A stretch of 39,700 nt of DNA, taken from positions 1 through 39,700 of the forward strand of contig JACPFF010000025.1 of the NCBI GenBank assembly GCA_016183065.1. The letters are read 5' to 3'. Made by a program: the position numbers and the translations under genes. The notes under the pieces are model-generated. The model did not search any database. It was not told where the DNA came from and was given only the letters and a program-made list of their open reading frames with translations. Positions 66 through 39,700 of the stretch are shown in pieces. Within the stretch, counting starts at the first letter, position 1. Each line of letters opens with the position of its first letter. Source of the stretch: Deltaproteobacteria bacterium. GTDB taxonomy: Bacteria > UBA10199 > GCA-002796325 > JACPFF01.

Positions 66-1835
66 ATGAACCAACAGATCAATCAGGTATTGAAGGACCT
101 CTATCCGGAAAGGAGCGGCCTGGTCATGACACCGGGGACGGAACTCAGGGCGGGGGTTTACCTGCGACAGAGCACCGTCAACCGGCAAAACTATGAAAGC
201 GTGGAGGAGCAACTGGAATTCATCCGGCACCGTTTGAATACTGCGCAGGTGCGCTCCTCACTCTTCCGCGAATGCAAGATCGTGATCGCGGACGACATGA
301 TCTTCTCCGATCGCGGGAAAACGGGACGGGTCGGCAGGGAGAAATACGACGCCTTCAAGTCGGCGATCCAGTGTGGTCTCTTCAAGATCGGTCTGGTCTT
401 CGATCTCTCCCGCTTGACCCGCGAGTTGGGAAGCCTGCTCGATGCTTATGATCTGGCCCATGCTTATAACGTCGAGACGATTTCCGTTTCGGAGGGGATC
501 AGTTCCCACACTGAAGGAGCCCGTATTCATTTCATCGCCAAGGGGATGGCCAACGAGATGTATTCGGAATCAACTTCGAGGCAGACCAAGCGCGGTCTGG
601 AACTGAGGGCGATTTCGGGAAAATCGACAGGGCACAATCCTTACGGCTACAGCAGTGTCTACGAGGATCCGAACCGGCCGCGGGATATACGCGAGCCGCA
701 TAACAAGAAGGTCATCATCAACGAGGAGCAGGCCAAGGTGATCGGCCGGATTTTCGAGCTGTATGATGCGTCGAGCGTCGGTGTCGATGGCATCGCCAAG
801 ATCCTGAATGCGGATGGAATTCCCTCCGCAAGTAGACGCTCATGGACGGGCGGATCCATCCGGTTGATTCTGCGCCAGCCCAAATACATCGGCATCTGGA
901 TCTACGGGAAGACGCACATCAAACGGGATTCGGCGAAAGACCGGCTCATCCACGTCCCCCGGCCGCAAAACGAATGGATCGTGAAAACCTACGAGCATCT
1001 GCGGATCGTTCCCCAAACCCTGTGGGACAGGGTGCAGGTGAAATTCAAGGAAGTCGAAGAGACGCGGCGAAACGCCCGCAACAAGCCCGAGTCGATCTGG
1101 GGAAAGAGCCGCGGTGCGGCGAATCACCTGTTCACGGGAACCATGCGATGCGGATCGTGCGGAGGGAATTTCATCTCCATGTCGGGACGGCACGGAGGCT
1201 ACTTCGGGTGCCGGAACGCCTATCGCAGGGGAACCTGCGACAACAGGCGACTTGTGCAGACGGAATGGATCAACGCCACGCTCACGGGACTGATCCGCAA
1301 CTGGATCGACGATCCGCGATCCATGGAAGTGGTCTGCAAGAACGCCAACGACCGGATCAAAGAGCGCCTATCGGTCGTTCCGACGCAAATCAGGGAAGTG
1401 ATGCAGGAACTCGGCAAGGTTCAGAAGGCCCTGGACAATCTCGTGGATTACATCGTTCAGGGGAACGCCTCGGAGAGCGTCTCGAGCGCGATCGGCAGGC
1501 AAGAACAGCGCAAGAAAATGCTCGAAGCGCAACTGCAAAACCTCAAGGCCCGGGAGCCGAGCGGTCCCTTGCTGACCCCTTACGCCGTGAAACCGATGCT
1601 GATCAACCTGGATGAGATTCTCACCAAGGACGTGGTACAGGCCAATGCCTACTTCAAGGGCCTGTTCCCAGAGCAGATGAAGATGACTCTGAAAAAAGAA
1701 GGCCGCTCCACGTTTTATGAAGCGGCCGGGAGAGTGAACCTCACCAAACTCATGAGGTTCGCCATGAGGGGAGGCTCCATCACACTCCGCACAGTCTTCG
1801 ACTGTGCTTCGCGGCCCAGCACAGCTGGGCCTTGA
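66..1835 (+). CDS. Large serine recombinase (site-specific integrase/resolvase family)
   Basis: A 589-residue large serine recombinase, which cuts and rejoins DNA at attachment sites through a 5'-phosphoserine link. The N-terminal catalytic domain starts near residue 28, with the nucleophile in YLRQST (Ser36) and the conserved SRLTR segment near residue 120. A recombinase domain follows (NPYGY near 200). A zinc ribbon begins at about residue 360 with CGSC and later FGC and GTC cysteines, then a coiled-coil stretch at about 430-500. AAAGGA lies about 8 bases before the start ATG. The last ~22 codons lie inside dispersed repeat R1, so the native C-terminus has been replaced or extended. No cargo genes or attachment sites could be tied to it; it may belong to an element mostly left of the window. 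The family is certain; its target site is unknown. Confidence 0.93.
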   Translation: MNQQINQVLKDLYPERSGLVMTPGTELRAGVYLRQSTVNRQNYESVEEQLEFIRHRLNTAQVRSSLFRECKIVIADDMIFSDRGKTGRVGREKYDAFKSAIQCGLFKIGLVFDLSRLTRELGSLLDAYDLAHAYNVETISVSEGISSHTEGARIHFIAKGMANEMYSESTSRQTKRGLELRAISGKSTGHNPYGYSSVYEDPNRPRDIREPHNKKVIINEEQAKVIGRIFELYDASSVGVDGIAKILNADGIPSASRRSWTGGSIRLILRQPKYIGIWIYGKTHIKRDSAKDRLIHVPRPQNEWIVKTYEHLRIVPQTLWDRVQVKFKEVEETRRNARNKPESIWGKSRGAANHLFTGTMRCGSCGGNFISMSGRHGGYFGCRNAYRRGTCDNRRLVQTEWINATLTGLIRNWIDDPRSMEVVCKNANDRIKERLSVVPTQIREVMQELGKVQKALDNLVDYIVQGNASESVSSAIGRQEQRKKMLEAQLQNLKAREPSGPLLTPYAVKPMLINLDEILTKDVVQANAYFKGLFPEQMKMTLKKEGRSTFYEAAGRVNLTKLMRFAMRGGSITLRTVFDCASRPSTAGP

Positions 1836-1992
1836 CCCGGCTTTGCCCGTTGGGGGGGCGCAGTGGCGACGACCGAGTCCGGGCACCCGCGAAGCGGGTG
1901 GACGAGGAAGTCCCCCAGCGCGCACCGCGCGCGCGAGGGGGGGACCCAACGGGCTTTGCCCGTTGGGGGGGCGACGTGAGCCCCTGTAATAG
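1766..1992 (+). repeat. Mosaic hairpin repeat, copy R1
   Basis: One of six related GC-rich copies. In order it holds: the GAGGCTCC lead-in; an inverted-repeat block with CACAGTC-TTC-GACTGTG and GCCCAGC-ACA-GCTGGGC; a hybrid CGGC-TTT-GCCCG joint; the linker GGCGACGACCGAGTCCGGG; ACCCGC-GAA-GCGGGT; a GCGCGC-rich module; a perfect 10-bp stem with TTT loop (1945-1967); and the tail GCGACGTGAGCCCC...AATAG. It encodes the final residues of the recombinase and ends 8 bp before the atpE stop codon, lying between two convergent genes. It lacks the left-end 15-bp hairpin seen in R3 and R4. Confidence 0.9.
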
Positions 1993-2000
1993 AGGGGCCC

Positions 2001-2324
2001 TTAAATCTTCCCCAGCAACAAGAACGAGATTACCCAGCTGTAGAGCACGAGCGATTCGATCAGCGCAAGACCGATGATCATGGGGGTCATGACCTTGGCC
2101 CCTGCACCGGGATTGCGGGCAATCCCTTCCAACGCAGCCGCGGCGGCCTTGCCCTGGCCGAGCGATCCGCCAAATGTCGCCAGTCCCATCCCAAGCATGA
2201 CGCCAAAGATCGCCCATCCGCGACCATCGCCGGAGACTGCGGCCTCCCCTTCTGCTGCAAAGGCGGCTCCCGCCACCAAGAGCGAACTCACGGCTGCGCT
2301 GAGCGCCACCAGTACTCGTTTCAT
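2001..2324 (-). CDS. atpE: ATP synthase F0 subunit c
   Basis: A 107-residue rotor-ring subunit of the F-type ATP synthase, in the inner membrane. A signal-like hydrophobic N-terminus ending AFA (residue 23) precedes the usual two-helix hairpin, as in several deltaproteobacterial c subunits. Helix 1 carries GQGKAAAAALEGIARNPGA; helix 2 carries the ion-binding Glu90 in ALIESLVLY. Gln57, Glu90, Ser91 and Tyr95 match positions used for sodium binding in known Na+ rings, but the position after Ser91 is Leu rather than Thr, so the ion cannot be assigned. The start at 2324 is chosen because GGGGAGGAG lies just upstream; a longer frame upstream has no such site. It is last in atpZ-atpI-atpB-atpE, 133 bp after atpB. 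The F1 genes are not in the window. Confidence 0.95.
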   Translation of the reverse strand: MKRVLVALSAAVSSLLVAGAAFAAEGEAAVSGDGRGWAIFGVMLGMGLATFGGSLGQGKAAAAALEGIARNPGAGAKVMTPMIIGLALIESLVLYSWVISFLLLGKI

Positions 2325-2457
2325 ACTCCTCCCCTTTCCGCATCCCCTCTGCACAGCTCGCTCTCTCGTATGAGTTCTATGACGGACTCGCTTACAGCCG
2401 ACTGGCAACGAGCCAACATGGAATACAGACGATGCGCGAACCGATGGGACGCTGCGG

Positions 2458-3192
2458 TTAATGTTCCTCACCATGCGCCTCGGCGAGTCCAATATAGACC
2501 GCCGAGAGCAGCGTAAAGACAAACGCCTGCACGAGACAGACAAATAGTCCCAATCCCAAAAAAACGACCGGCACGATCACCTTGGTCAAATCGGTAAACA
2601 CGCTCAGCACGGCATGATCGGCCGTCATGTTCCCCAACAACCGGATCGAGAGGGAAAACGGCCGCACCACGTGGCTGATCACCTCGATCCCAAAGAGGAG
2701 CGGCGCAATCCAGATCACCGGCCCCATGAGATGCCTGAGATAATTTCCCAACCCCTGCGCCTTAATGCCCATATAATTGTAATAGACAAAGACCGTCCCC
2801 GCGATGACGAGATTGGTGTGGAGATTACTCGTCGGCGGTGACATCCCTGGAATGAGGCCAATGAGATTACTGCAGAGGATATAAAAAAAGACCGTCCCGA
2901 GCAGTGGCAAGTGCCGCCCCGCGTGGGGGCCAATGATCCCCTCGAGCAACCCCAGCAACCACTCCACGGCCGTATCGAAGAGTGCAACCACCCCGGTCCG
3001 TTTCGGCGGGATGATCGCCTCGCCCGGACGGCGGACTCGCCGCCAGACCATGAAGGCCAGGACACTTAAAATAGAGACCGCGAGCGCCGCACTGTAATAA
3101 TGTTCCACGGCCTGCACGTGATACGCATGACCGCCGAGCATCTGCGCCACCCACGGAATGAGCCCGAAATCGTCTCCACCGGCTAAGAGCAT
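2458..3192 (-). CDS. atpB: ATP synthase F0 subunit a
   Basis: A 244-residue membrane stator subunit forming the ion half-channels against the c-ring. Several hydrophobic helices are visible, with the family signatures LIGLIPG (about 110-116) and SLSIRLLGNM, which contains the essential Arg184. Length is normal. The start codon (3190-3192) overlaps the end of the upstream atpI-like gene, implying translational coupling. The C-terminus is acidic and histidine-containing (AHGEEH), common in this subunit. No b subunit gene is next to it, so b and the F1 subunits must lie elsewhere. Confidence 0.96.
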   Translation of the reverse strand: MLLAGGDDFGLIPWVAQMLGGHAYHVQAVEHYYSAALAVSILSVLAFMVWRRVRRPGEAIIPPKRTGVVALFDTAVEWLLGLLEGIIGPHAGRHLPLLGTVFFYILCSNLIGLIPGMSPPTSNLHTNLVIAGTVFVYYNYMGIKAQGLGNYLRHLMGPVIWIAPLLFGIEVISHVVRPFSLSIRLLGNMTADHAVLSVFTDLTKVIVPVVFLGLGLFVCLVQAFVFTLLSAVYIGLAEAHGEEH

Positions 3193-3569
3193 TCTCCCTT
3201 ACCACTCCCTTCAACCACACCGCCCCACACCATCCCAAACAAGACACTGCCAAAACCGATCATGACAGCGAGCGGATCCAACGACGTTCGCATGACCACC
3301 CAGAGCAGAAGCCCGATCGGGATCACCTTCAACACCATGCGGACGGCCAAGGCTCCCGCGCCCACATCTCCCTCCGTGCGATGCGCCACGACACTACGAA
3401 CAAGCCGGTCCCAGAGGGCCAAATTGGCGAGGCCAATAACACCGCCCACCCCCACTGACAAGGGGATTTTCCCCTCCCATCCGATACAGGCCGCCCCAAC
3501 CGCCAGCAGGCCGCAGATGGCCGAACTGAGGAAGATCACTCGCGATTTTTTTCCCGCTCTTCCTTCCAT
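3183..3569 (-). CDS. atpI: ATP synthase subunit I-like membrane protein
   Basis: A 128-residue small membrane protein with about four hydrophobic segments (VIFLSSAICGLLAVGAACIG, then GGVIGLANLALW, then VIPIGLLLWVVM and a last one near the C-terminus). Size, topology and place directly before atpB fit the ATP synthase I (AtpI-like) family, thought to help c-ring assembly. The start at 3569 (MEGRAGKKSR) is chosen because a basic N-terminus directly precedes the first helix; the frame continues upstream through the atpZ gene. It overlaps atpZ by 34 bp and atpB by 10 bp. Family membership rests on context and hydropathy more than on strong motifs. Confidence 0.75.
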   Translation of the reverse strand: MEGRAGKKSRVIFLSSAICGLLAVGAACIGWEGKIPLSVGVGGVIGLANLALWDRLVRSVVAHRTEGDVGAGALAVRMVLKVIPIGLLLWVVMRTSLDPLAVMIGFGSVLFGMVWGGVVEGSGKGECS

Positions 3570-3772
3570 TGGAGGATCCTCCAGAGATTCCAAAACCCGC
3601 CGACCGCCCCACTGATCGCGCAGAGGACGGTCAAGAGCGGTGCGGTCTGCCACTGTTCGTCCAACCACCACCCAAGCATTGCCATCCCCACCACCGCACC
3701 GACGAGTTGCAGGGCCGCTCCGCTCAAGAGACCGTATGTCCGCATCCATTCCCGAGAGTCATCGCGCGGCAT
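3536..3772 (-). CDS. atpZ: AtpZ/AtpQ-type F0F1 accessory protein
   Basis: A 78-residue protein with two predicted transmembrane helices (GLLSGAALQLVGAVVGMAML and LLTVLCAISGAVGGFWNLW) joined by GWWLDEQWQTAP, the usual AtpZ plan, with a charged C-terminus. AtpZ-type proteins sit at the head of F0 operons and are linked to assembly or divalent-cation movement. The start at 3772 follows GGGAGGCGATC. It is the first gene of the minus-strand F0 operon and overlaps the next gene by 34 bp, so the operon promoter should lie in 3773-3917, shared with the divergent gene at 3918. Confidence 0.75.
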   Translation of the reverse strand: MPRDDSREWMRTYGLLSGAALQLVGAVVGMAMLGWWLDEQWQTAPLLTVLCAISGAVGGFWNLWRILQWKEEREKNRE

Positions 3773-3846
3773 GATCGCCTCCCTAGAGCACATCTCGGCA
3801 CGCGCTTCAAGATCGGCAGAAAATCGCTCGCCCTCGCTGCGGCACC

Positions 3847-3890
3847 TTGACGTGTGTTCCTGACCACGATACAGAGAGGGCGCATCGTGG
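3847..3890 (+). promoter_or_regulatory. Possible sigma-70-type promoter with overlapping operator-like inverted repeat
   Basis: TTGACG (3847-3852) is followed after 17 bases by TACAGA (3870-3875), a weak -10. A perfect 7-bp inverted repeat, CCACGAT (3864-3870) and ATCGTGG (3884-3890) with a 13-base gap, spans the -10 and expected start site. It lies 28 bp before the barrel gene at 3918 and in the divergent gap with atpZ. This is a sequence match only. Confidence 0.3.
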
Positions 3891-3917
3891 ATGCCATACG
3901 CGCGTGAGGAGGGGACA

Positions 3918-4808
3918 ATGACCCATCGACTTTTTTCTGCCATGGCAGTTGCCGGCACCCTGCTGCTGGCCCAACTGGCCGTGGCACAAGTCGCCGTACC
4001 GTCACTCAATGAACCGGGATCGCCCACACAGTGGACGGCTCCTGCAGTAGGTCGCGTTCCCTCTCCACACGGTGGCTACGCCACCGACAGTGAAGAAATC
4101 GCTGCGGAACGGCCACGGGCCACGCGCCGATTGGCACCGGTCGGCTCACGCCATTTCCAGATGGAAACGAGTGTTGATTATCAAACCGAGAATGATACGG
4201 CGGCCAAGAGAGAGCAGATCAGCTTTCCCACCCTGCTCCGTTACGGGCTTTCGGAGCACGTTGAAGTGCAGATGCAGGGGAACATGTATACCTTTCAGAA
4301 CATCAGCGGTGGAAGCAACGTCAACGGTTTCGGAGATCTCTTCTTCGGCTCAAAATGGGCCGCCCTCGATGGTGGCGGATTGCTCCCCTCGCTCGGGTTT
4401 GCCGGGCGTCTCGGGCTCCCGACCGGCTCCAACAGCGTCTCCGGCAACGCCCTGCAACCACAGGCCGAAACGATTATGTCATGGGACATGCCGTGGGAAA
4501 TGACCCTCGATGGCAATCTCGGCATGGATCTCCCCCCGAAGGATGCCGCGGGTGACCGGTTTGTCCGTCTCACCTATGGGGCGGCGGTGGAACGACCACT
4601 CCCTTTTTGGAGCGATCGCCTCAATGCCTTTGTGGAATTCGCCGGGGCCGTGCCACTCAAGAGCCAGAAAAGCGGCACGCACCTCTTCGGGACCGGCGTT
4701 GGATTCCGCATCCGCGATAATATGCAGCTCGACACCTTCGGACGCTTTGGTTTGAGTAAGTCGTCGCCCGACGTGCAAACCGGGCTTGGATTCAGCTGGC
4801 GCCTGTAA
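3918..4808 (+). CDS. Outer-membrane beta-barrel protein (phenol MetA-pathway/transporter-like family)
   Basis: A 296-residue exported protein. A signal peptide (MTHRLFSAMAVAGTLLLAQL, cleavage near AVAQ-VAV) is followed by a ~60-residue low-complexity segment and a barrel-like region rich in alternating strands (SRHFQMETSVDYQ, FPTLLRYGLSEHVEVQMQ, NGFGDLFFGSKWA, PSLGFAGRLGLPTGS). It ends in an aromatic strand, GLGFSWRL. This plan fits the putative MetA-pathway-of-phenol-degradation barrel family, whose members are outer-membrane proteins of mostly unknown substrate. The start at 3918 is preferred over an in-frame ATG at 3891 because GAGGAGGGG sits just before it and the signal peptide follows. 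It converges with the lipoprotein gene 16 bp downstream. Substrate unknown. Confidence 0.75.
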   Translation: MTHRLFSAMAVAGTLLLAQLAVAQVAVPSLNEPGSPTQWTAPAVGRVPSPHGGYATDSEEIAAERPRATRRLAPVGSRHFQMETSVDYQTENDTAAKREQISFPTLLRYGLSEHVEVQMQGNMYTFQNISGGSNVNGFGDLFFGSKWAALDGGGLLPSLGFAGRLGLPTGSNSVSGNALQPQAETIMSWDMPWEMTLDGNLGMDLPPKDAAGDRFVRLTYGAAVERPLPFWSDRLNAFVEFAGAVPLKSQKSGTHLFGTGVGFRIRDNMQLDTFGRFGLSKSSPDVQTGLGFSWRL

Positions 4809-4824
4809 TCACTCTGCTGAACTT

Positions 4825-6588: not shown

Positions 6589-6699
6589 AGATGCCTCCTT
6601 CTCCCCTCACAGAGAATGCAGCAAGAATCGTACCAGAAGATGGAAAATAAAGAACAATAACATCAACTATTTAAGCGGATTTTTGACCATCAAGAACGT

Positions 6700-6740
6700 C
6701 TCAGAATGAGAATTTCTCACAATGTCATTCTCATTTTGAG
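6700..6740. promoter_or_regulatory. Operator-like inverted repeat upstream of the lipoprotein gene
   Basis: CTCAGAATGAGAAT (6700-6713) and ATTCTCATTTTGAG (6727-6740) are 14-bp inverted arms with one mismatch and a 13-base gap. A second perfect palindrome, TGAGAA-T-TTCTCA (6707-6719), is nested in it. The sequence is A/T-rich in contrast to the surrounding genes, and lies 112-152 bp upstream of the minus-strand start at 6588. Repeated GAGAAT/ATTCTC units recall Fur-family boxes, but the match to the GATAAT consensus is imperfect. No regulator gene is near. Confidence 0.45.
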
Positions 6741-6747
6741 CCTGTGG

Positions 6748-6992
6748 AGCCGCACCGCGGCGTTGAGGGGGAGGCTCCATTTCACTCCGCACAGTCTTCG
6801 ACTGTGCTTCGCGGCCCAGCACAGCTGGGCCTTGACCCGGCTTTGCCGCTGGAGGGGGGGGGCGACGACCGAGTCCGGGGACCCAGCGCAGCTAGGTGGA
6901 CGAGGAAGTCCCCCAGCGCGCACCGCGCGCGAGAGGGGGGGGACCCAACGGGCTTTGCCCGTTGGGGGGGGCGACGCGAGCCCCTGTAATAG
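6748..6992 (+). repeat. Mosaic hairpin repeat, copy R2
   Basis: It begins at the GCCGC-ACC-GCGGC module and continues through GGGGAGGCTCC; the CACAGTC-TTC-GACTGTG and GCCCAGC-ACA-GCTGGGC block; GGC-TTT-GCCGCTGGAG; the GACGACCGAGTCCGGG linker; a variant ACCCAGC-GCA-GCTAGGT hairpin; the GCGCGC module; the CCCAACGGGC-TTT-GCCCGTTGGG hairpin; and the AATAG tail. The left-end 15-bp hairpin is missing; the copy starts 8 bp from the 6700-6740 inverted repeat. Its right 101 bp are read through by hemL on the minus strand and supply the hemL stop codon. Confidence 0.9.
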
Positions 6993-8241: not shown

Positions 8242-8270
8242 GATCCTCTCTCCAGTGATAATGCCACCGC

Positions 8271-8999
8271 ATGCGGGCCATCTTGGCATCCCTCGATCTC
8301 GAAATCAAATCTCTTCGCGAGAATTTGGAGGTCGACACGACCGTCTTTCTCCATCCGGGCCGCCTCTGGCAGGGACGCCTTGCCGCACAACTGGTCTGTC
8401 TGGGGCGTACAGGGATGGGACGGCAGGCCATGTTCGTGAGTGCCGAGAGCTGTTTCCGGCTCCTGCGCCCTTCGGCTGCCCTGCTGGTCGGCTTTGCGGG
8501 GGCCACCACACCGCTCTTGCATCAGGGTCATGTGGTGTGCAGTCAGACGATCATCGACGCCAAGACCCGCCAGGAATGGACTCCTGCACCAGAGGCACTC
8601 GCCCGTGGCCTCGCTGCCTGCCAGGCAGCGGGTGTCGAGGCACAATCCGGCCGCGCCATCACGGTCGATAATCCGGTGGCGACGCCGCATGAGAAGGCCT
8701 TTCTCGGCACAGAACATCAGGCAGACACGGTCGACATGGAAGGGTCGAGCTTTGCGGCAGCAGCCACGGCGGCACAGATCCCATGGCTCATGATCCGTGT
8801 GGTTGTGGACGAAATGGAATGTCCTCTCCCCTTCGGCTTTTCACCGCTCAAGCGCGATGGCCGGTTGTCGTTGGCAAAGACCGCCGGGTATTGTCTCCGG
8901 CATCCGCGGATCTTTCCGCAACTCTCCGCCTTGCACGTCGCGGCAACGCGGGGGCGCGGGCTCCTTGCACAACTCTCACAGGCATGGCTCGGCGCCTAG
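8271..8999 (+). CDS. Nucleoside phosphorylase-superfamily protein (MTA/SAH nucleosidase- or HpnG-like)
   Basis: A 242-residue protein of the PNP/UDP phosphorylase fold, which cleaves N-glycosidic bonds of purine nucleosides. Key marks are GMGRQAM (about 50-56), VGFAGATTP for the phosphate/ribose loop, [12 protein letters not shown] (the Met-Glu pair that contacts ribose), and [13 protein letters not shown], where Asp occupies the purine-binding position. The DMEG and VVxD arrangement, with proline after the Asp segment, resembles hopanoid-associated phosphorylases (HpnG) as well as MTA/SAH nucleosidases; sequence alone does not separate them. No clear ribosome site precedes the ATG at 8271. 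It overlaps the next gene by 16 bp, forming an operon through 10509. No hopanoid cyclase gene is visible here. Confidence 0.75.
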
Positions 9000-10009
9000 C
9001 CATATTCCTCTGTTGCGGTCTCCTCCTCTTTCTCGAGAGCAATAGCCCGCGTTGGAAAACACCGCAGCCACCGGCACCGCACGACACCCTCATTGCACTG
9101 TCACAGTGGATTGATGGAACGCCGCAACGCGCCATGGCATTCCATCCACAGGAACTCAACGATCGTTTGCGGGCACACCATCTGTTGGCGCCGGTGCTCG
9201 ATCTCTTCTGGCCACTCGCGTTGATCGAGGCCACTGCAACCACGTCGCAGATCGATGGATTGCTGGTGGCACAATTCAACAACGGCGGCACGGTTCTCCT
9301 CCTGGCATATCGGCAACCGCTCGATCTTCCGGCATTCATCGTCGCACTCCCACCGCCCTTCCACCTCCGCGTCCTCGCGCCCGCCGTCATCGCCATCGCC
9401 GATCCTCTGGGCAGACGGAGACTCCGTTTCCGACCGATCCAAGACGTGGGGCACCGGACTGACGTCCGGGGCCCCACGACCCAGCCGCACGGCGGCGCTG
9501 AAGGGGAGGCTCCAGCGGCTTTGCCGCTGGAGGGGGCAGTGGCGACGACCGAGTCCGGGAACCCGCGAAGCGGGTGGACGAGGAAGTCCCCGCAGGCGGA
9601 GCCGGAGGGGACGCAAGCCCCTCCAATAGTCGCACCATGGATGGCTTTCCTCTCGCCACCACATGAGAGATCCCGGCTCTTCGGATTTGTTGTCCTCACG
9701 CCCGCAATGCGCCAACAACTGCCGGCATCGCTCCGTGCCATTGACCGCGTGGTCATCGAAGGGGAGATAGATGCCATCAGCGAGTATCATCTCCAATTGA
9801 TCAGCAAAACCCCATTGCTGGCGAAGACCCTGGCACCTCATCTCCGAGAGCTGGTCACGGCCGGAGATTTTGCCTCCCGGCTGCGCCCTTGGTTGACGAC
9901 GATCTGGCGGTCAATTACAGTGGAGTTGAACGACGCGATCGTCCACGTGCGGGGATACATTGACAGTACGTTCATCGAGCGCCTCATGACACAGAAAGGA
10001 ATGCCATGA
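8984..10009 (+). CDS. Membrane-anchored protein of unknown function carrying an in-frame repeat insertion
   Basis: A 341-residue protein with an N-terminal signal anchor or signal peptide ([17 protein letters not shown]), followed by a likely periplasmic domain. No family was recognised; the style (LIALSQWIDGTPQRAMAF, LLVAQFNNGGTVLLLAYRQP) suggests a substrate-free structural domain. Residues ~154-216 are encoded by repeat R3 and are Gly/Pro/Arg-rich with no stop, so the repeat interrupts the protein between strand-rich halves while keeping frame. The start at 8984 is chosen because the signal segment follows directly; the frame is open further upstream over the phosphorylase gene. The stop overlaps the next start as ATGA. 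Whether the product folds is unknown. Confidence 0.72.
   Translation: MARRLAIFLCCGLLLFLESNSPRWKTPQPPAPHDTLIALSQWIDGTPQRAMAFHPQELNDRLRAHHLLAPVLDLFWPLALIEATATTSQIDGLLVAQFNNGGTVLLLAYRQPLDLPAFIVALPPPFHLRVLAPAVIAIADPLGRRRLRFRPIQDVGHRTDVRGPTTQPHGGAEGEAPAALPLEGAVATTESGNPRSGWTRKSPQAEPEGTQAPPIVAPWMAFLSPPHERSRLFGFVVLTPAMRQQLPASLRAIDRVVIEGEIDAISEYHLQLISKTPLLAKTLAPHLRELVTAGDFASRLRPWLTTIWRSITVELNDAIVHVRGYIDSTFIERLMTQKGMP
9445..9629 (+). repeat. Mosaic hairpin repeat, copy R3 (inside a gene, in frame)
   Basis: It has the left-end hairpin with one mismatch (CGTGGGGCACCGGAC, loop TGAC, then the complementary arm), GCCGC-ACG-GCGGC, CTCCAGCGGC-TTT-GCCGCTGGAG, the GACGACCGAGTCCGGG linker, ACCCGC-GAA-GCGGGT, and a variant tail in which GGAGGGG can pair with CCCCTCC before AATAG. 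It lacks the CACAGTC block and the CCCAACGGGC hairpin. It is 185 bp long and open in the host reading frame throughout. Confidence 0.9.
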
Positions 10010-17213: not shown

Positions 17214-17326
17214 CGTGGGGCCCCGGACTGACGTCCGGGGCCCCACGATCCAGCCGCACTGCGGCGTTGAGGGGGAGGCTCCAGCGGCTTTGCCGCTGGA
17301 GGGGGCGACGTGAGCCCCTCCAATAG
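17214..17326 (+). repeat. Mosaic hairpin repeat, copy R4 (shortest complete copy)
   Basis: It carries the perfect left-end hairpin: 15-bp arms around TGAC (17214-17247). Next come GCCGCA-C-TGCGGC, GGGGAGG, and a perfect 10-bp stem CTCCAGCGGC-TTT-GCCGCTGGAG (17279-17301). The tail is GGAGGGGGCGACGTGAGCCCCTCC, which can form its own stem, ending AATAG. It lacks the central CACAGTC, GAA-loop and CCCAACGGGC modules. It lies between convergent genes and ends 9 bp before the esterase stop codon. Confidence 0.92.
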
Positions 17327-19379: not shown

Positions 19380-20570
19380 CTACACGTGAAGTTGTGTCCA
19401 CACCTCGCGGATGCTGCGGGCGCCGGCGCGGGGGCCTTCGGCGTGGCCAAAAACGCCGCGGCCGGCGATGAAACCGAAATCGACATGCCCGACCTGTTGC
19501 GCAACGTGCGCGAGAGTCTGTGCAGAATCACTACCTCCCGGGATGGGAAGCGCGGGAGCAATGGCGCCAAGCGGTTCCAGACAGGCATGGATATTGGCAC
19601 GGACTTCATCGGGCGCGGTCTGCATGCGATCGCCAAACCCGGCAAAACCGATCATATCCGCGCCGGCGATGCGCATCAGCCTGGTCAGAAGCGCCGAGGC
19701 AATGCCACCTTGTGGCCGTCGCGTCAATACTGCGACACCGGCAAAGTGCGCCATGACCGGCACGCCACTCACGCGCCGCAACGCACGCAACGCCGAGAGA
19801 CCGGTCCACACCGGACTGATCATCACCGCCGTTGCGCCGGCACGTTCGGCGATATGGCATTGTTCGGGGATCCGGTCCACTTCGTCGATACAGTTGGCGA
19901 TGAACCCCTTCCGTTCGCCCGTGAGTTGCTCGGCGCGCTGCCGGCGTTCTGACACACATGTCACGCGCCCGCGCAATGTCGACCACGATGTATCGGCCTG
20001 CATCTCGTCGTCTTTGGCCATATCGAGGCCACCACACCACGCCTCAAAGGCCAATGCCGCAAAATCGGCGGGCGAGAGTCCGAGGTTGGGTTTCACCACG
20101 CCGATAAAAAACGGGCGTTCATGAATCTGCAATTGTTCGCGCACACCATGGAGACCGAACTGAGGCCCGGCAAACTCGGCAAGATAACCCGCCGGAAAGG
20201 TGATATCGAGCAGTGTGATTGCGGCAACCCCTGGGGCATAAAAGGTCCCCTCTCCAGCCGCCGCCACGAGCAGGTTCGGCAGACGCGCGCCAAAATTGCG
20301 ATGCGGATGCGCGATCTCCACCAGCCACCGGCCTTGGGCAACGTCACCCACCGGTTCCAGGCGAATGACCTTCGCGCCAAAACGTTCACGAAGGTCCTCG
20401 ACCACCCCAACACGCTGCCACATGGCGGTACTCTGCTCGGCACAGAGCCCTGCAACGGCCTTGCGCGGATCGATCGTTGGGACGAATTCATAGAGAAAGC
20501 GCAGATACGCCGGCTGATCCAACTGCGACCACTCGGCGAAGAAAGCGGGGATGTCGTAGTCGGTCACCAT
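19380..20570 (-). CDS. RuBisCO-like protein (form IV)
   Basis: A 396-residue RuBisCO large-chain fold protein. RuBisCO equivalents seen: KPNLGLSPADF with Lys160 (position of Lys175) but Asn162 in place of Lys177; GGLDMAKDDEM with the carbamylation Lys186 and metal ligands Asp188/Glu189 kept; PGGSDS near the C-terminus; and GRGVFGHAEGP. The loop-6 lysine region reads GFAGFGDRM with no lysine. Loss of these residues excludes bona fide carboxylation and places it in form IV; the KPNxGLSP, AKDDEM, GFGDRM and PGGSDSA patterns resemble the 'Photo' clade of Chlorobium, whose reaction is not settled. It is the last gene of the xseA-xseB-ispA operon, 6 bp after ispA, where dxs is often found. Substrate not assignable. 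Confidence 0.9.
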   Translation of the reverse strand: MVTDYDIPAFFAEWSQLDQPAYLRFLYEFVPTIDPRKAVAGLCAEQSTAMWQRVGVVEDLRERFGAKVIRLEPVGDVAQGRWLVEIAHPHRNFGARLPNLLVAAAGEGTFYAPGVAAITLLDITFPAGYLAEFAGPQFGLHGVREQLQIHERPFFIGVVKPNLGLSPADFAALAFEAWCGGLDMAKDDEMQADTSWSTLRGRVTCVSERRQRAEQLTGERKGFIANCIDEVDRIPEQCHIAERAGATAVMISPVWTGLSALRALRRVSGVPVMAHFAGVAVLTRRPQGGIASALLTRLMRIAGADMIGFAGFGDRMQTAPDEVRANIHACLEPLGAIAPALPIPGGSDSAQTLAHVAQQVGHVDFGFIAGRGVFGHAEGPRAGARSIREVWTQLHV

Positions 20571-23140: not shown

Positions 23141-23403
23141 CTATTACAGGGGCTCACGTCGCCCCCCCAACGAGCCAAGCCCGTTGGGTCCCCCCCTCTC
23201 GCGCGCGGTGCGCGCTGGGGGACTGCCTCGTCCGCCCAGCTTCGCTCGGTGCCCGGACTCGGTCGTCGCCACTCCCCCCTCCAGCGGCAACGCCGGGTCA
23301 AGGCCCAGCTCTGCTGGGCCGCGAAGCAGAGTCGAAGACTGTGCGGAGTGTGATGGAGCCTCCCCTTCAACGCCGCGGTGCGGCTGGGTCGTGGGGCCCC
23401 ACT
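23141..23403 (-). repeat. Mosaic hairpin repeat, copy R5 (reverse orientation, longest)
   Basis: Read on the minus strand it holds almost every module: collapsed left-end palindrome GTGGGGCCCCAC, GCCGC-ACC-GCGGC, GGAGGCTCC, the CACAGTC-TTC-GACTCTG and GCCCAGC-AGA-GCTGGGC block, GGC-GTT-GCC, the CGACGACCGAGTCCGGG linker, a GAA-loop variant, the GCGCGC module, AACGGGC-TTG-GCTCGTT, and the AATAG tail. Compensatory changes against R1/R2 are noted in the findings. It fills the divergent gap between xseA and the gene at 23502. The rest of that gap (23011-23140 and 23404-23501) shows nothing recognisable beyond a ribosome site at 23489. Confidence 0.92.
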
Positions 23404-29790: not shown

Positions 29791-29802
29791 AGGAGAGGGA
29801 CC

Positions 29803-30480: not shown

Positions 30481-30495
30481 CGCCCGAGAGCCCGC

Positions 30496-30548
30496 TTGAC
30501 AACTGATACCCCACCGGGGTAGCCTATCTTTATACCGGTATGGGGTAT
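30496..30548 (+). promoter_or_regulatory. Probable csoR promoter with CsoR-type operator
   Basis: TTGACA (30496-30501) and TAGCCT (30520-30525), spaced by 18, form a promoter. Between them lies TACCCC-ACC-GGGGTA (30507-30521), a dyad of the kind bound by CsoR-family repressors (TACCCC/GGGGTA arms with a short G/C core), so a repressor there would block polymerase. A second related dyad, ATACC...GGGTAT (30532-30548), overlaps the start region just before ATG 30551. This points to autoregulation of the whole metal operon. Confidence 0.6.
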
Positions 30549-30550
30549 CA

Positions 30551-30820: not shown

Positions 30821-30845
30821 CCACCGGCACGCGGAGAGAGAACGT

Positions 30846-32075: not shown

Positions 32076-32106
32076 TTTTTCACGGCACCCGGTAAAGGAG
32101 TCCGAC

Positions 32107-33195: not shown

Positions 33196-36100
33196 TCAAT
33201 GCGATCATCGAATATAGCGCACGGAACAAGTTCCTCGTCCTGCTCCTCACGGTCAGCGCCGTGCTGCTCGGCATTCACGCGATCCGCACCACCCCGCTCG
33301 ACGCCATTCCCGACCTCTCCGAACAACAGGTAATCATCCTCTCCCGGTGGGAGCAGAGCCCCGACATCATCGAGGACCAGGTGACCTATCCGATTGTCAC
33401 GTCGCTCCTCGGCGCCCCAAAGGTGCGGACCGTCCGCGGCCTCACCGATTACGGCTACTCGTTTGTCTATGTGATTTTCGAGGACGGGACCGACATCTAC
33501 TGGGCGCGCAGTCGGGTGTTGGAGTATCTCTCCAAAATCCTTCCCCAGCTTCCCGATGGCGTGAAAACAGAACTCGGCCCTGATGCCACGGGCGTCGGGT
33601 GGGTCTATCAGTATGCGCTGACCGACGAATCCGGCGCACACGACCTTGCCGATCTGCGGAGCTATCAGGACTGGAATCTCCGTTATCTCCTTCAGTCCGT
33701 CCCGGGCGTAGCCGAGGTGGCGACGATCGGCGGTTCTGTCCAGCAGTACCAGGTCCAGATCGAACCGAATGCCCTGCTGGCCTACAACGTCCCCATTACC
33801 AAAGTCGTCGAAATGATCCGCAAGGGGAACAACGACATTGGCGCACGACTGCTCGAGTTCGGCGGGACAGAGTACATGGTGCGTGGCCGTGGATACATCC
33901 GCGACATCGAGGATCTGAAGGCGATCGTCGTGGCCGTTAACGACAACGGCACGCCGATCCGCGTGCAAGATCTCGGGCAGGTCACGTTGGGTCCCGACAT
34001 TCGCCGCGGCATTGCCGATCTCGACGGACGCGGCGACAGCGTGGGGGGCATTGTCGTCGTGCGGTATGGAGAGAACGCCAAGGCCGTGATCGACCGCGTC
34101 AAGCAGCGCCTCGACGAAATCCGGCCGACACTCCCGGCAGGGATGGAGATTGTCACGACCTACGACCGATCGGAGCTGATCGAGCGATCGGTGGGCACCT
34201 TGCGCCACGAACTGACGGAAGAGTTGCTCATCGTCAGCATCGTGATTCTCCTCTTCCTCTGGCATTTTTCCAGCGCCCTCCTCCCGATCCTGACGATTCC
34301 GATCTCCGTGATCATCGCATTTATCCCGTTCAAAATGATGGGACTGACGGCCAACATCATGTCGCTCGGCGGGATCGCCGTCGCCATCGGCGCCCTCGTC
34401 GATTCGTCGATCGTGGTCGTTGAAAACGCCCACAAGAAACTCGAACAGTGGATCGCCGGGGGACGCCAGGGAGACTATCATCCCGTCCTCATTCAGGCGG
34501 TCAAGGAAGTCGGCCGCGCAAGTTTCTTTTCGCTGCTGGTCATTGCCGTCTCGTTTATGCCGATCTTTGCGCTGGAAGCGCAGGAGGGCCGACTGTTCAA
34601 GCCGCTCGCCTTCACCAAGAACCTCGCCATGGCGATCGCGGCGATCCTGACGATTACGCTGGTGCCGGCGCTGATCACGATACTGATCCGGATGCGTCCG
34701 CTCCGCCTCAAATCCCCACGGCTTTCACGGTGGGCGAACCGCGTGCTGGTGGGAACCATTCACCGGGAGGAAGACCATCCAATCAGCCACCGCCTCCATC
34801 GCTGGTATGCACCGGTCGTCCATTGGGTCTTGGAACATCCCCGGAAGGTCATTTGGGGCGCTGCGGCGGCCTTGATCGTGACACTGCCGATCTACTTCCA
34901 GATCGGGAGCGAATTCATGCCACCGCTCAACGAGGGGACGATCCTTTACATGCCCACCACGCTCCCGGGAATCTCGGTGAGCGAGGCCGAGCGGCTCCTG
35001 CAAAATCAGGACACGATGCTCAAGTCATTTCCCGAGGTCGAACGGGTCTTCGGCAAGGCGGGCCGCGCGGAGACCGCCACCGATCCGGCCCCGCTCTCGA
35101 TGGCCGAGACCGTGGTCCTGCTCAAACCGGGCGTCAAACTCACCGAGGAGCTGATCAATCGGTTCGATGCGGCCATGCAGTTTCCTGGCACGACCAATGC
35201 CTGGACCATGCCGATTAAGACACGCCTCGACATGTTGTCGACCGGCATCCGCACACCGATTGGCATCAAAGTTCTGGGGGAAGATCTGGCGGTCATCGAA
35301 CAGATCGGCCTCCAGATCGAGCAATTGTTGCAACCGCTGAAGGGGACGCGGAGCATCTTTGCAGAGCGTGTCACCGGCGGGTACTTCCTCGACATCGATC
35401 TGCAGCGATCCGCACTGGCCCGTTACGGCATGTCCATTGAGGACGCGCAGGAGGTGCTGGAAACGGCCATCGGCGGAAAGAACATCACCGTCACGGTCGA
35501 GGGACGAGCGCGCTATCCGGTCAACGTGCGCTATGCACGGGAACTGCGGGACGATATCCAGGACCTCGAGCGGGTCTTGGTGCCCACCCCCGGCGGTGAA
35601 CAGATCCCGCTCGCGGCAATCGCGACCGTGCAATTCACGACCGGTCCGGGGATGATCCGCGACGAAAACGGCCTCCTTGCCGGCTACGTCTTTATTGACG
35701 TTGCAGGTCGCGACCTCGGCGGGTACGTCGACGAGGCGAAGGCCCTCCTGGCCAGCCGGTTGAAGCTCCCCGACCGCTATTTTCTCGATTGGAGCGGCCA
35801 GTACGAATTCATGGTCCGCGTCCGCAAGAAACTGGCCGTGGTCGTGCCGATCACGCTCGTGATCATCTTCCTCCTCATCTACATCAACACCGGCTCCGCA
35901 ACGAAGACGGCAATCGTCCTCCTGGCCGTACCCTTTTCGGCAATCGGCACGATCTGGCTCCTCTGGCTCCTCGACTACAACATGAGCATTGCGGTCTGGG
36001 TCGGCATCATTGCGCTGCTCGGCATTGATGCCGAGACCGGCATCTTCATGCTCCTCTACCTCGACCTCGCCTATGATGACGCCAAGGCGACCGGACGCAT

Positions 36101-36362
36101 GCGAACCATGCACGATCTCCGCGAGGCCATTCTGCATGGCGCGGTCAAGCGGGTCCGGCCCAAAGTGATGACCGTCGCAACGACCTTCATGGGACTGATG
36201 CCGATTATGTGGTCATTCGGGACGGGCGCCGACGTCATGAAGCGGATTGCCGCACCCATGGTCGGAGGACTGGCAACATCCTTCCTGATGGAACTTATCG
36301 TCTATCCCGCCATCTATTTCCTCTGGAAGCAACGGCATCTCGCACATCAGGGGGCCACATGA
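33192..36362 (+). CDS. cusA: CusA-like heavy-metal RND efflux pump
   Basis: A 1056-residue inner-membrane proton-driven exporter of Cu(I)/Ag(I)-type ions. It starts at TTG (33192), overlapping the cusB TGA by 3 bp. The HME-RND signatures are present: TTPLDAIPDLSEQQVIILS after the first helix, the TM4 acid in GALVDSSIVVVENAHKKL, GIDAETGIFMLLYLDLA and VRPKVMTVATTFMGLMPIM, matching the Asp/Glu/Lys relay of E. coli CusA. The periplasmic methionine-bearing IDMLSTGIRTPIGIKVLG-type segment is close to CusA/SilA. Length is normal. Metal is inferred from family and neighbours. Confidence 0.95.
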   Translation: MINAIIEYSARNKFLVLLLTVSAVLLGIHAIRTTPLDAIPDLSEQQVIILSRWEQSPDIIEDQVTYPIVTSLLGAPKVRTVRGLTDYGYSFVYVIFEDGTDIYWARSRVLEYLSKILPQLPDGVKTELGPDATGVGWVYQYALTDESGAHDLADLRSYQDWNLRYLLQSVPGVAEVATIGGSVQQYQVQIEPNALLAYNVPITKVVEMIRKGNNDIGARLLEFGGTEYMVRGRGYIRDIEDLKAIVVAVNDNGTPIRVQDLGQVTLGPDIRRGIADLDGRGDSVGGIVVVRYGENAKAVIDRVKQRLDEIRPTLPAGMEIVTTYDRSELIERSVGTLRHELTEELLIVSIVILLFLWHFSSALLPILTIPISVIIAFIPFKMMGLTANIMSLGGIAVAIGALVDSSIVVVENAHKKLEQWIAGGRQGDYHPVLIQAVKEVGRASFFSLLVIAVSFMPIFALEAQEGRLFKPLAFTKNLAMAIAAILTITLVPALITILIRMRPLRLKSPRLSRWANRVLVGTIHREEDHPISHRLHRWYAPVVHWVLEHPRKVIWGAAAALIVTLPIYFQIGSEFMPPLNEGTILYMPTTLPGISVSEAERLLQNQDTMLKSFPEVERVFGKAGRAETATDPAPLSMAETVVLLKPGVKLTEELINRFDAAMQFPGTTNAWTMPIKTRLDMLSTGIRTPIGIKVLGEDLAVIEQIGLQIEQLLQPLKGTRSIFAERVTGGYFLDIDLQRSALARYGMSIEDAQEVLETAIGGKNITVTVEGRARYPVNVRYARELRDDIQDLERVLVPTPGGEQIPLAAIATVQFTTGPGMIRDENGLLAGYVFIDVAGRDLGGYVDEAKALLASRLKLPDRYFLDWSGQYEFMVRVRKKLAVVVPITLVIIFLLIYINTGSATKTAIVLLAVPFSAIGTIWLLWLLDYNMSIAVWVGIIALLGIDAETGIFMLLYLDLAYDDAKATGRMRTMHDLREAILHGAVKRVRPKVMTVATTFMGLMPIMWSFGTGADVMKRIAAPMVGGLATSFLMELIVYPAIYFLWKQRHLAHQGAT

Positions 36363-37003
36363 AGACGATGATCTGCATGGCCATGCTCCTGGTCGGGTCT
36401 GCATCTGTCACCGCATGGGGACACGGTGATGCCGACAAATTGGCGCCGATGAAGAGACCGCCGGTGACAGCACCCCGGGCCGTCGACCATCATGACACGA
36501 CTGGAGGGGCGCACATCCACGAGTCGGTACCACAGGGACCCGCATTCAAACCGGCAAAGGCCTATCTGCTCCATGCACCCCCGTTGCACCCCATGCTCGT
36601 CCACTTCCCCATTGTCCTCTTGCTCGCCGCTGCCGTCTTCGGCATCCTGCACATGGTTCAGCCGACCGCAGCCCGTTATCGGCGCCTGTATCGCACGCTC
36701 GTCGCGGGGACGGTGGGCGCGGTCTGTGCGCTCGCCAGCGGACTCTATTTCGAGGCGACGGTCACACACCGGCATGACGGCCCCATCCATGACATCATGG
36801 AGTGGCACGAATCGCTCGGCATCGCGATCACGATCCTCACCGGGGTGCTCGTCCTCCTTGGCGGGGTCGCGATGCGGCGTGCGTCACCGACGGTGCAACG
36901 CATGGTCGCCTGGGGTGCCGTGGCGAGCGGCCTTCTCGTGGCGCTCACCAGCCACTTGGGTGGCCTGCTGGTCCACGAATTTGGCATTGCCTTTGGGGTG
37001 TAG
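36359..37003 (+). CDS. His-rich DUF2231 membrane protein
   Basis: A 214-residue protein. A signal-like start (MICMAMLLVGSASVTAWGHG) is followed by a His/Asp-rich periplasmic stretch (HGDADK, VDHHDTTGGAHIHE). The DUF2231 helical bundle has the hallmark PPLHPMLVHFPIVLLL and three further helices ending GLLVHEFGIAFGV. It overlaps the cusA stop as ATGA and is 9 bp before the permease, so it belongs to the metal operon. DUF2231 proteins occur with metal and redox systems, with no settled function. The His-rich segment would suit metal binding. Confidence 0.85.
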   Translation: MKTMICMAMLLVGSASVTAWGHGDADKLAPMKRPPVTAPRAVDHHDTTGGAHIHESVPQGPAFKPAKAYLLHAPPLHPMLVHFPIVLLLAAAVFGILHMVQPTAARYRRLYRTLVAGTVGAVCALASGLYFEATVTHRHDGPIHDIMEWHESLGIAITILTGVLVLLGGVAMRRASPTVQRMVAWGAVASGLLVALTSHLGGLLVHEFGIAFGV

Positions 37004-37012
37004 GAGAAATGG

Positions 37013-38110
37013 ATGGAAGGTTTTGTGTTCCATTTTTTTGGTATTCTGATCGCCGCGTGGCAACTCTTTGTCGGTGCTGCGATCTATATCCTGTTCGGAT
37101 TGATCATTGCCGGCATCATTCATCTCTCTATCCGCAAGGAGACGATCGGCCGTCACCTGGGCGCTCGAAACATCCGTGCGGTCCTCAAGGCCGCGATCGT
37201 CGGCATCCCACTCCCGCTCTGCTCCTGCGGGGTCCTCCCCACCGCCATGAGTCTGCGCAAAGAGGGGGCCTCCAAGGCGGCGACCACGGCATTTCTCATT
37301 GCCACGCCTGAGTCGGGCATTGATTCCATTGCCGTGACCTATGCCTTGATCGATCCGCTCATGACCGTCATCCGTCCGGTGGCCGCCTTTGTCACCGCTC
37401 TCTGTGCAGGTATTGCACAGCTGATATTTGGCACAGACGATGATGTAATGCCGGCGGCCGCTCCCCAGGCCACGGCCACCGCCACGTGCTGCACCTGCGC
37501 AGACGGCGGACGTCCCGCCACTACCGTCTCCCGACTATCGTCCCTCTCCCGCGGGCTCCGCTATGCCTTCATCGATCTCCTTGCGGATATTACGCCGACA
37601 TTTCTCCTCGGCATTCTGCTGGGGGGCCTCATCAGTTATCTGGTCCCCACAGCATTCATCGAACAGTATCTCGGCCAGGGGTGGCAATCGATGCTGGTCA
37701 TGCTCTTTGCCGGCATCCCGATCTACATCTGCGCCGCGGCCTCAACGCCGATTGCCGCGGCCCTGCTGCTCAAGGGGATGAATCCCGGTGCGGCCATTGT
37801 CTTTCTCCTCGCCGGCCCTGCCACAAACATGACCGCACTGCCGGTCATTGCCAAGGGTTTGGGGTGGCGGAGCGTTGCCATTTATCTCACGACTATTGCC
37901 GTCTGCACCTTCGCTTTTGGCCTGGTCACCGATGCCCTCTACGCGACATTCCATATCAACCTTTCCGCCTCGATCGGACATGGCCATCATCCGATTTCGC
38001 TGACTGTACGCACGCTCTGCGCCATCGCGCTTCTTGGACTCATGATTGGCGCTGTTTTGGCGGATCGGCGTTCACGGGTTGACACCGGTCACAGCCACCA
38101 CGTACAGTAG
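37013..38110 (+). CDS. SO_0444-type Cu/Zn efflux permease
   Basis: A 365-residue inner-membrane permease (DUF318/UPF0718). It carries the family signature IPLPLCSCGVLPTAMSLRKE with Cys70/Cys72 in the first half and the matched half-repeat ICAAASTPIAAALLLKGMNPG in the second. A Cys cluster (TCCTCADGG) sits in the central loop and the C-terminus is GHSHHVQ. SO_0444-type permeases are described as heavy-metal (Cu/Zn) effluxers. AGGAG precedes the ATG by about 7 bp. Last gene of the copper operon; a weak terminator follows at 38124. Confidence 0.88.
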   Translation: MEGFVFHFFGILIAAWQLFVGAAIYILFGLIIAGIIHLSIRKETIGRHLGARNIRAVLKAAIVGIPLPLCSCGVLPTAMSLRKEGASKAATTAFLIATPESGIDSIAVTYALIDPLMTVIRPVAAFVTALCAGIAQLIFGTDDDVMPAAAPQATATATCCTCADGGRPATTVSRLSSLSRGLRYAFIDLLADITPTFLLGILLGGLISYLVPTAFIEQYLGQGWQSMLVMLFAGIPIYICAAASTPIAAALLLKGMNPGAAIVFLLAGPATNMTALPVIAKGLGWRSVAIYLTTIAVCTFAFGLVTDALYATFHINLSASIGHGHHPISLTVRTLCAIALLGLMIGAVLADRRSRVDTGHSHHVQ

Positions 38111-38123
38111 CATCGTTCTCACA

Positions 38124-38141
38124 ACCGACACGGCTTTTTTT
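38124..38141 (+). terminator. Weak terminator-like sequence after the copper operon
   Basis: CCG-ACA-CGG (38125-38133) is a 3-bp stem followed by C and seven T residues (38135-38141), 14 bp after the permease stop. The stem is short, so termination strength is doubtful. Confidence 0.3.
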
Positions 38142-38302
38142 GCTGCACGCTCGCCAGCATTGTGCGCGGAGGGTCCCGTACAATCTGCGGGCGCAAGATG
38201 GCATTGTGCAGGGCGTTCCCGGTGAGGACTACGCGCTTGCCCGTGGGAAGCTATAGGGCCTCTCTCCTTGCCAACGATCCGAGGCTTCCCTATGGTACGC
38301 GC

Positions 38303-39601
38303 ATGACGCTACGGACACTGGACGCCTTGGTGAAACACTATCCCGACCTCCCGCGGGAGGCGATCCTCAAGACTGATCTTCTCCGCTTGGGGGTTGCCTT
38401 CACGCCGGCGGCTTTGTGCCGCTGCGCGAGTGCCAAGCCAAAATCCTATTTCATCTTCTCGTTTGATCGCAAATCTCAGAAGGAGTTGTCACCCGAAGAA
38501 CGTCACTGCGCTCCTGAAGAGATTGCCCTCATCGGTGGCCCGTGGGATTGTCAGCGGACGATTGTCTCCGTCCGCTTGAATCCCGATTCACCGTACCGGA
38601 TCGATGCTGTTGATGAGCACCCCCTGACACTGCAATGCGACGGGACACCGCTCTGCACCATCGAACTCCCGACGTTCCCCGCCTATTACGCCCGGCCGCT
38701 TGCCAATGGAAAGCCGGTCACCGATATCGCACCCACCCTGGAGTGGGGATATCTGATCTATCTCACGACATTCCGGCTCTGCCAATATTGGGGACGTGAG
38801 GAAGAGTGCCAGTATTGCGACATCAACGAAAACTACCGCCAGCAGCGCGCCGAAGGACGCTCATATACCGGCGTCAAAACACCGGAAGACGTCTGTGAAG
38901 CGCTCGCGATAATCAACGAACTCGATGTCGAACGACAGAGCCGGACCTATACCGTCACGGGAGGGAGCATTACCACGCAGCTCCAGGGGCTCAGCGAGGG
39001 GGCCTTCTACGCGCGGTATGCCGAGGCAATCGAGTCGCGTTTTCCGGGCCGATGGATCGGCAAGGCTGTGGTGCAGGCCCTTTCGCGCGACGAGGCCCGG
39101 AGGTTGCGGACCGCAGGCTACCAGATCTATCATCCCAACTTCGAGGTCTGGGACCCCGTGTTGTTCGACAGAATCTGTCCTGGCAAGGCCCGACATGTCG
39201 GCCGCGAGGAATGGATCCGGCGGATCATGGATGCCGCGGAATTTTTCAGGCCGACACATGTCATTCCGAATTTCGTCGCCGGCGTCGAAATGGCCAAGCC
39301 TCATGGATTTACCACAATCGATCAGGCCCTGCAGTCGACCGGTGCGGGGTTGGACTGGTTCATGGCACGCGGGATCCTCCCGCGATTCACGGTCTGGTGC
39401 GTGGAACCGAACACCACACTGGCGCGAACCAATCCCGAGCCACCGCCGCTCGCCTATTTCGCCGGATTGTTGCAACGCTATTGCGAGACCTTTCACCGCT
39501 ATGGTCTTCCGCTCCCGCCGGGGTATGGTCCGACAGGCCGTGGCAGGGCCGTTTTTTCCGTCTCCGCATTCATGGATGTCTTGCCGGAATCCGGAGCCTG
39601 A
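38303..39601 (+). CDS. Radical-SAM-like protein with CX8CX2C cluster motif
   Basis: A 432-residue protein. Near residue 160 it has LCQYWGREEECQYCDIN: three Cys (160, 169, 172) with CX8CX2C spacing and an aromatic before the last Cys, like the CxxxCxxC that binds the [4Fe-4S] cluster in radical-SAM enzymes but with a longer first gap. YTVTGGSI then fits the Gly-rich SAM segment, and TIM-barrel-like strands follow (GYQIYHPNFEVW, FTVWCVEPNTTL). The ~150-residue N-terminal region, with LCRC and LQCDGTPLCTIELP, may be a separate domain. The start at 38303 (MTLRTLDALV) is a guess; ATG 38198 and GTG 38162 are in frame. No ribosome site decides it. Substrate unknown. Repeat R6 begins 7 bp after the stop. 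Confidence 0.65.
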   Translation: MTLRTLDALVKHYPDLPREAILKTDLLRLGVAFTPAALCRCASAKPKSYFIFSFDRKSQKELSPEERHCAPEEIALIGGPWDCQRTIVSVRLNPDSPYRIDAVDEHPLTLQCDGTPLCTIELPTFPAYYARPLANGKPVTDIAPTLEWGYLIYLTTFRLCQYWGREEECQYCDINENYRQQRAEGRSYTGVKTPEDVCEALAIINELDVERQSRTYTVTGGSITTQLQGLSEGAFYARYAEAIESRFPGRWIGKAVVQALSRDEARRLRTAGYQIYHPNFEVWDPVLFDRICPGKARHVGREEWIRRIMDAAEFFRPTHVIPNFVAGVEMAKPHGFTTIDQALQSTGAGLDWFMARGILPRFTVWCVEPNTTLARTNPEPPPLAYFAGLLQRYCETFHRYGLPLPPGYGPTGRGRAVFSVSAFMDVLPESGA

Positions 39602-39608
39602 ACGACGG

Positions 39609-39700
39609 CGTGGGGCCCCACGACCCAGCGCGCACCGCGCGCGAGAGGGGGGGGACCCAACGGGCTTTGCCCGTTGGGGGGGCAGTGGCGACGACCGAGT
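39609..39700 (+). repeat. Mosaic hairpin repeat, copy R6 (cut by window end)
   Basis: It opens with the collapsed palindrome CGTGGGGCCCCACG, then goes directly to the GCGCGC-type module and the perfect 10-bp stem CCCAACGGGC-TTT-GCCCGTTGGG, and only then to the AGTGGCGACGACCGAGT linker. That order is the reverse of R1, R2 and R5, where the linker comes first. It begins 7 bp after the radical-SAM-like stop codon and runs off the window. Confidence 0.88.

Follow-up and report, generated by a model that had tools for sequence, protein, structure and literature searches.

In elements of the IS200/IS605 type, a conserved tetranucleotide lies in the left flank and has an equivalent at the right end (PMC6006769), and RAYT enzymes, guided by GT[AG]G, cleave at C|T (PMC6006769, PMC8266576). 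The palindrome-associated transposable elements (PATEs) of Haloquadratum are related to the IS605 type (PMC3119063), and palindromic repeats lying in frame are already known (PMC3733652, PMC2759123), so that such insertions are not new in kind. We analysed a stretch of 39,700 nt (the window), contig C7 of a single MAG (a 1.97-Mb bin of 30 contigs, 88.8% complete), in which an earlier note had described six mosaic, hairpin-built repeats, R1 to R6. These repeats are probably non-autonomous single-strand mosaic elements that depend on an HUH-Y1 transposase acting in trans, are inserted 3' of CNAC, and are kept in genes when translatable.

The window repeats and their family

All six repeats are present where they had been placed, with pairwise matches of 60-95% over 30-112 nt, and their modular build from hairpins was upheld. 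The count of six was too low: BLAST returned 58 pieces for R1 and 55 for R3, and a covariance model (CM) of module C gave 106 matches in the genome. We read 112 tails together with their flanks, and the family has some 20-30 further copies. The reported tail, AGCCCCTNYAATAG, is real, occurring five times in the window (0.71 expected from shuffles) and 133 times in the genome (6 for a reversed control pattern), apart from its last G, which is better assigned to the target flank as its first base.

At least four hairpin modules (A, B, C and D/E) can be distinguished, with C composed of three hairpins (~75 nt) and A measuring ~57 nt in the window copies, where B stands ahead of the shared tail and B-left is followed by another C (C2). 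R1 (1768-1991, plus strand, starting at ~1768; CM score 85.0 bits) is truncated at its left end and consists of C1-left, A (~1780-1836), B-left (~1863-1915) and a complete C2 (1912-1985) before the AATA end. R2 (6744-6991, plus strand) is a 248-nt unit running from GTGGAGCCGC to AATA, with C1-left, A, B-left and C2 (75.0 bits at 6910-6985). The 183-nt R3 (9446-9628, plus strand) is made of D-short, C1-left and B, while the 111-nt R4 (17215-17325, plus strand), made of D-short and C1, gives the best CM score, 86.3 bits; both are shortened internally between CCCC runs. On the minus strand, the 261-nt R5 (23142-23402) comprises D-short, C1-left, A, B-left and C2 (81.9 bits at 23148-23221), and a fragment of an E-type left module (ATAGCTTCCCACGGGC...) lies at 38224-38254. 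R6 (39610-39700, plus strand, 46.9 bits) has D-short and C2, then B-left, where the contig end cuts the unit.

Among the other genes of the window, a RuBisCO large-chain-like protein with the Pfam catalytic domain is encoded at 19380-20570 on the minus strand. The ORF at 66-1835 (plus strand) encodes a large serine recombinase with Resolvase, Recombinase and zinc-ribbon domains and weak similarity to CcrB/XisF. Its last residues are encoded by R1, which has overwritten the 3' end of the gene; we dropped this recombinase as a mobiliser and treat it as a host gene outside the element.

Modules A, B and C were each found as separate elements in related genomes of the class. In R1, R2 and R5, A is placed inside the left arm of the second hairpin of C, and the terminal ACGTGAGCCCCTNNAATA is a right end common to B and C. 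Because the three modules exist separately and B and C have this end in common, the mosaic would be explained by small elements nested in each other and sharing one end, in an order of events that we infer from sequence; recombination at shared loops, as the earlier note had proposed, would account for a part of it only. The stems covary: 13 of 16 pairs show compensatory changes among 48 sequences, with a covariation score of 0.362, compared to 0.135 when shuffled and 0.042-0.086 with partners slid.

Of 46 genomes from the same class, 22 contain module C according to the covariance model, with copy numbers ranging from 0 to 106 across the class, and the module also occurs in MAGs deposited as Nitrospirae (Nitrospirota), Troglogloeales, Syntrophus, Deltaproteobacteria, Bdellovibrionales and Acidobacteria. 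Searches of IMG/VR and of plasmid and phage collections gave no match. A minus-strand tail near 1815 in L194 holds three tandem copies of ACGTGAGCCCCTGTAG with a 16-nt period. In other genomes (L069, L072, L111, L132, L156, L162, L327, L331), a small number of C or B units are bordered on both sides by a repeated 17-37 bp of flank that often corresponds to a tRNA or gene 3' end; such flank repeats are absent from the 112 units here and may reflect integration, tandem duplication or an assembly effect.

Ends, target sites and strand polarity

A unit runs from GTGG to GAGCCCCTNNAATA with sharp ends, a random left flank and GTNG as its right flank. For 51 left ends, which had been gathered by their GTGG start, each of the 25 preceding positions holds at most 0.26 bit before GTGGGGCCCCACG starts; a looser parse assigned 68 GTGG starts and 9 TAGN starts and left 36 units without an assigned left end. 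On the right side (112 ends), AGCCCCTNYAATA is almost invariant and is followed by G (98%), T (78%), any base, G (75%) and then random sequence. Read on the complementary strand, the layout becomes a CNAC flank, then TATTNNAGGGGCTC ... CCAC, then a random flank (the transposition strand is also written TATTNNAGGGG..CCAC, and the family end sequence is AGGGGCTCRCGTCGCCCC), with the element end and the target formed by the same kind of tetranucleotide. The conserved tetranucleotide borders one end only, without target duplication: when the right flank was sought upstream in the 112 units of this genome, the sole match was repeat DNA itself. The earlier claim that there are no terminal inverted repeats is correct, the hairpins being subterminal.

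Units with the other left module (ATAGCTTCCCACGG) carry TAGA as their right flank, and the type of left end is coupled to the flank at the right: GTGG units had TAGT in 50 cases and TAGA in one, compared to five TAGA and one TAGT for TAGN units (Fisher 8e-6). Across the relatives and named MAGs, TAGA is the commonest such flank motif, and a TAG lies no more than 10 nt away in 39 of 112 copies in the named MAGs and in 12 of 18 copies in the relative G024, against a background of ~4%. Because left end and target have changed together, the evolution of target choice becomes directly testable.

Joining the flanks without the unit restores intact host genes, revealing exact empty sites in homologous genes. 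For MurF, the joined flanks align to the solved E. coli enzyme (1gg4) with no gap at the join, and those of OPRT align to 4paw. The same applies to genes for SQS_PSY (squalene/phytoene synthase), an RNR with an intein, SLT-LysM, a FAS-like protein and SLT, as well as to ACPS, for which the match is below the curated cut-off.

GC skew, which is steady along the contigs, served as a proxy for replication direction. As a rule, the tail strand lay opposite the G-rich one (51/18 on contigs with positive skew and 2/13 on those with negative skew, p = 2e-5), also when units in open frames were excluded over all scored contigs (45/14 vs 3/17, p = 1.8e-6). From the orientation of the units relative to the skew, the strand bearing CNAC|TATT...CCAC is therefore the lagging-strand template by this proxy, a polarity that had been predicted from the target side ahead of the skew measurement. 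A lagging-strand template is the expected polarity for IS200/IS605-type transposition.

Taken together, the ends, the one-sided target, the exact joins and the strand bias lead us to deduce that an HUH-Y1 enzyme acts in trans, and the earlier suggestion of mobilisation in trans is backed by the same features. The units would move as a single strand by 'peel-and-paste', with a transposase of the IS200/IS605 or REP/RAYT kind supplied from elsewhere. On the transposition strand, a CNAC flank would be followed by TATTNNAGGGGCTC, the hairpins, CCAC and a random flank, and insertion would take place directly 3' of the CNAC tetranucleotide on the lagging-strand template, creating no target duplication. 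With more than 100 copies, sharp ends and strand polarity, the family offers a large natural data set on single-strand transposition beyond a few model elements.

Units inside coding sequence

Each of the 11 in-gene units that were scored has a length divisible by three; 10 of them are read through in a stop-free open host frame. These 10 are found in SQS_PSY (129 nt), the intein (240), RNR (168), MurF (168), SLT-LysM (168), FAS-like (99), PyrE-like (90), ACPS (240) and SLT (168) genes, and as R3 in the window (183), which lies without stops and in frame within the plus-strand ORF at 8783-10009 and would add 61 residues (VGHRTDVRG...GTQAPPI) to a host protein that has no Pfam match. Relatives of this host protein were sought as an empty site for R3 in the window, and the matches covered the repeat part only. 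The eleventh, a minus-strand unit of 168 nt in a Peripla_BP_2 (periplasmic-binding-protein) gene at L244, has one in-frame TGA and is not read through. A cupin-like gene with a 129-nt unit behaves alike and was left out of the count as it lacks a Pfam match. In MurF, the only copy found in the incomplete assembly, the unit, corresponding to an insert of 56 residues, is located shortly after the P-loop within a single open frame of 539 aa. At L186 (C3:5628-15196), one RNR gene holds two units in one frame, the first inside the intein and the second in the RNR part. The lineage with in-gene units has been deposited as deltaproteobacterial groundwater MAGs, with at least one case in a relative of another family (G028), where a C unit is in frame within a long ORF.

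When considering all GTGG units, 42 of 65 have lengths that are multiples of three (11 of 11 in genes vs 31 of 54 elsewhere, p = 0.006), including every amplified size class (168, 240 and 129). The binomial value for this excess, 2.5e-7, overstates independence since length is shared by descent; counted by distinct lengths, p = 0.03. The module lengths follow the same pattern, with 168 for D+C and additions of 57 for A, 72 for B and 39 for C2. Translation of the in-gene units is predicted from their open frames, and units inside genes would persist given a length that is a multiple of three and an open frame. We infer selection as the reason for the lengths divisible by three. A more tentative proposal, which we put forward as a possibility, is that the elements themselves were selected to be translatable, with stop-poor modules in multiples of three serving as harmless linkers in a gene-dense genome, and that a natural switch of target from TAGA to GTNG went along with the left end; if true, this switch would be the counterpart in nature of IS608 retargeting. 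Here small mobile DNA has become part of the genes for enzymes that apparently have no second copy and are likely essential, such as MurF, with a predicted extra peptide of up to ~80 residues, and how palindromic repeats enter proteins, a question posed for Rickettsia, becomes directly testable.

Candidate enzymes, rival explanations and known systems

The rival explanation that survives best is a strict domesticated REP/BIME system, in which a resident RAYT makes and spreads the repeats, which would act as gyrase/IHF-type or mRNA-stabilising sites. Both the GTGG start and the GTNG target agree with the GT[AG]G guide that RAYTs use (PMC6006769, PMC8266576), and the genome contains one RAYT-like gene, the only full-length Y1 gene found in it. 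However, this gene scores 44.6 bits, below the family cut-off of 80 bits, and is bordered by a different inverted repeat, GGGTACGTCATAC. The units are also chains of 82-336 nt, far longer than the 20-40 bp palindromes of REPs, and many are intragenic, making such a system doubtful as the source of the family. The earlier note saw no transposase, and no gene for one with these ends was found; the genome does have a Y1 gene, though without the family ends. GGGTACGTCATAC is found inverted around the RAYT-like gene (L182 1286-1300 and ~2085-2100), recurs at L186, L231, L235 and L245, and probably represents the family of terminal repeats that belongs to the RAYT itself.

We sought Y1 transposases in 45 genomes and read 29 loci of relatives (the best of each genome, up to a limit), and none of these had A, B or C ends within 1.5 kb. 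In some genomes with C copies (G016 and G036), no Y1 gene was detected. At L183 (C8:65820-65984), a unit of this family interrupts an IS200/IS605-type tnpA remnant at the HUH motif. For the HUH-Y1 transposase that we favour, the cognate enzyme may have been lost, may be encoded in the missing 11% of the genome, or may act on ends unlike its own, as suggested for the CGTC repeats (PMC3733652).

It is very unlikely that the modules were shuffled without any transposition, solely through homologous recombination or gene conversion at the loops they share. The copies do have stems and loops in common, and the shortening of R3 and R4 between CCCC runs fits this process, but it does not explain how units came to be joined exactly at new sites in genes, the coupling of left end and right flank, or the strand bias. 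Recombination as the sole mechanism is thus contradicted, and it may have added diversity. A conserved structured RNA or regulatory element (terminator, riboswitch or sRNA) copied along with genes would account for the strong covariation and wide phyletic spread. This is highly improbable given the more than 100 copies in unrelated contexts and within coding sequence in both orientations, the range from none to 106 copies within one class, and the lack of an Rfam match, which the earlier note had asked about: no family reached the gathering score, and a sub-threshold E-value scan gave only tRNA and chance matches. For a classical MITE mobilised by a DDE transposase, the short length, lack of coding capacity and high copy number would fit, but the missing terminal inverted repeats and target duplication and the one-sided target leave it scarcely credible. 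An artefact of metagenome assembly, suggested by contig ends that fall in repeats (R6, C23, C26), can be dismissed almost entirely, as more than 100 copies each have different unique flanks and homologous modules recur across numerous independent MAGs that come from different projects.

Compared to known systems, the elements that we propose to be mobilised in trans share with IS200/IS605-type elements the lack of terminal inverted repeats, the subterminal hairpins, the absence of target duplication, the one-sided tetranucleotide and the lagging-strand bias, while ends common to a tnpA-bearing element were found at none of the Y1 loci read. The family thus appears to work like a non-autonomous element of this type, a likeness rather than proven membership. 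The earlier view that it is unlike a simple REP does not stand, as the GTGG start and hairpins are those of REP/BIMEs and PATEs and mark a variant of that kind. Like REP/BIME/REPIN sequences with their RAYTs (PMC3733652, PMC8266576, PMC3116915), the units have hairpins with GT[AG]G at one end (GTGG on 68 of the parsed units), high copy number, mosaic combinations and occasional in-frame gene insertion; beyond the difference in length, the clean one-sided unit here includes a second end (AGCCCCTNNAATA), and a RAYT flanked by these repeats was looked for and not found. With PATEs (PMC3119063) they share the lack of terminal inverted repeats, the near-terminal palindromes, the absence of target duplication and of a gene, mobilisation in trans, and small elements invading at palindromes, whereas this family is bacterial, inserts in frame into genes and has two coupled target types, and IS605-type elements with related ends were not found. 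Rickettsia palindromic elements (RPEs; PMC3733652) also lie in frame within unrelated protein genes, although RPE-4 and RPE-6 bear a CGTC tag, unlike the GTGG or TAGN ends, defined target and modular build seen here. The enterobacterial RU elements (PMC2759123), small mobile repeats of 103-168 bp with intragenic copies read as peptide, are described as MITE-like, in contrast to units without terminal inverted repeats. REP/BIMEs, PATEs and RPEs each share parts with the family, and each falls short in one tested defining feature. A direct search of the literature for the core sequence found no paper, and what is new, as far as we have searched, is the family as such, together with its mosaic construction, the coupling of its two target types and the load that it places on coding sequence.
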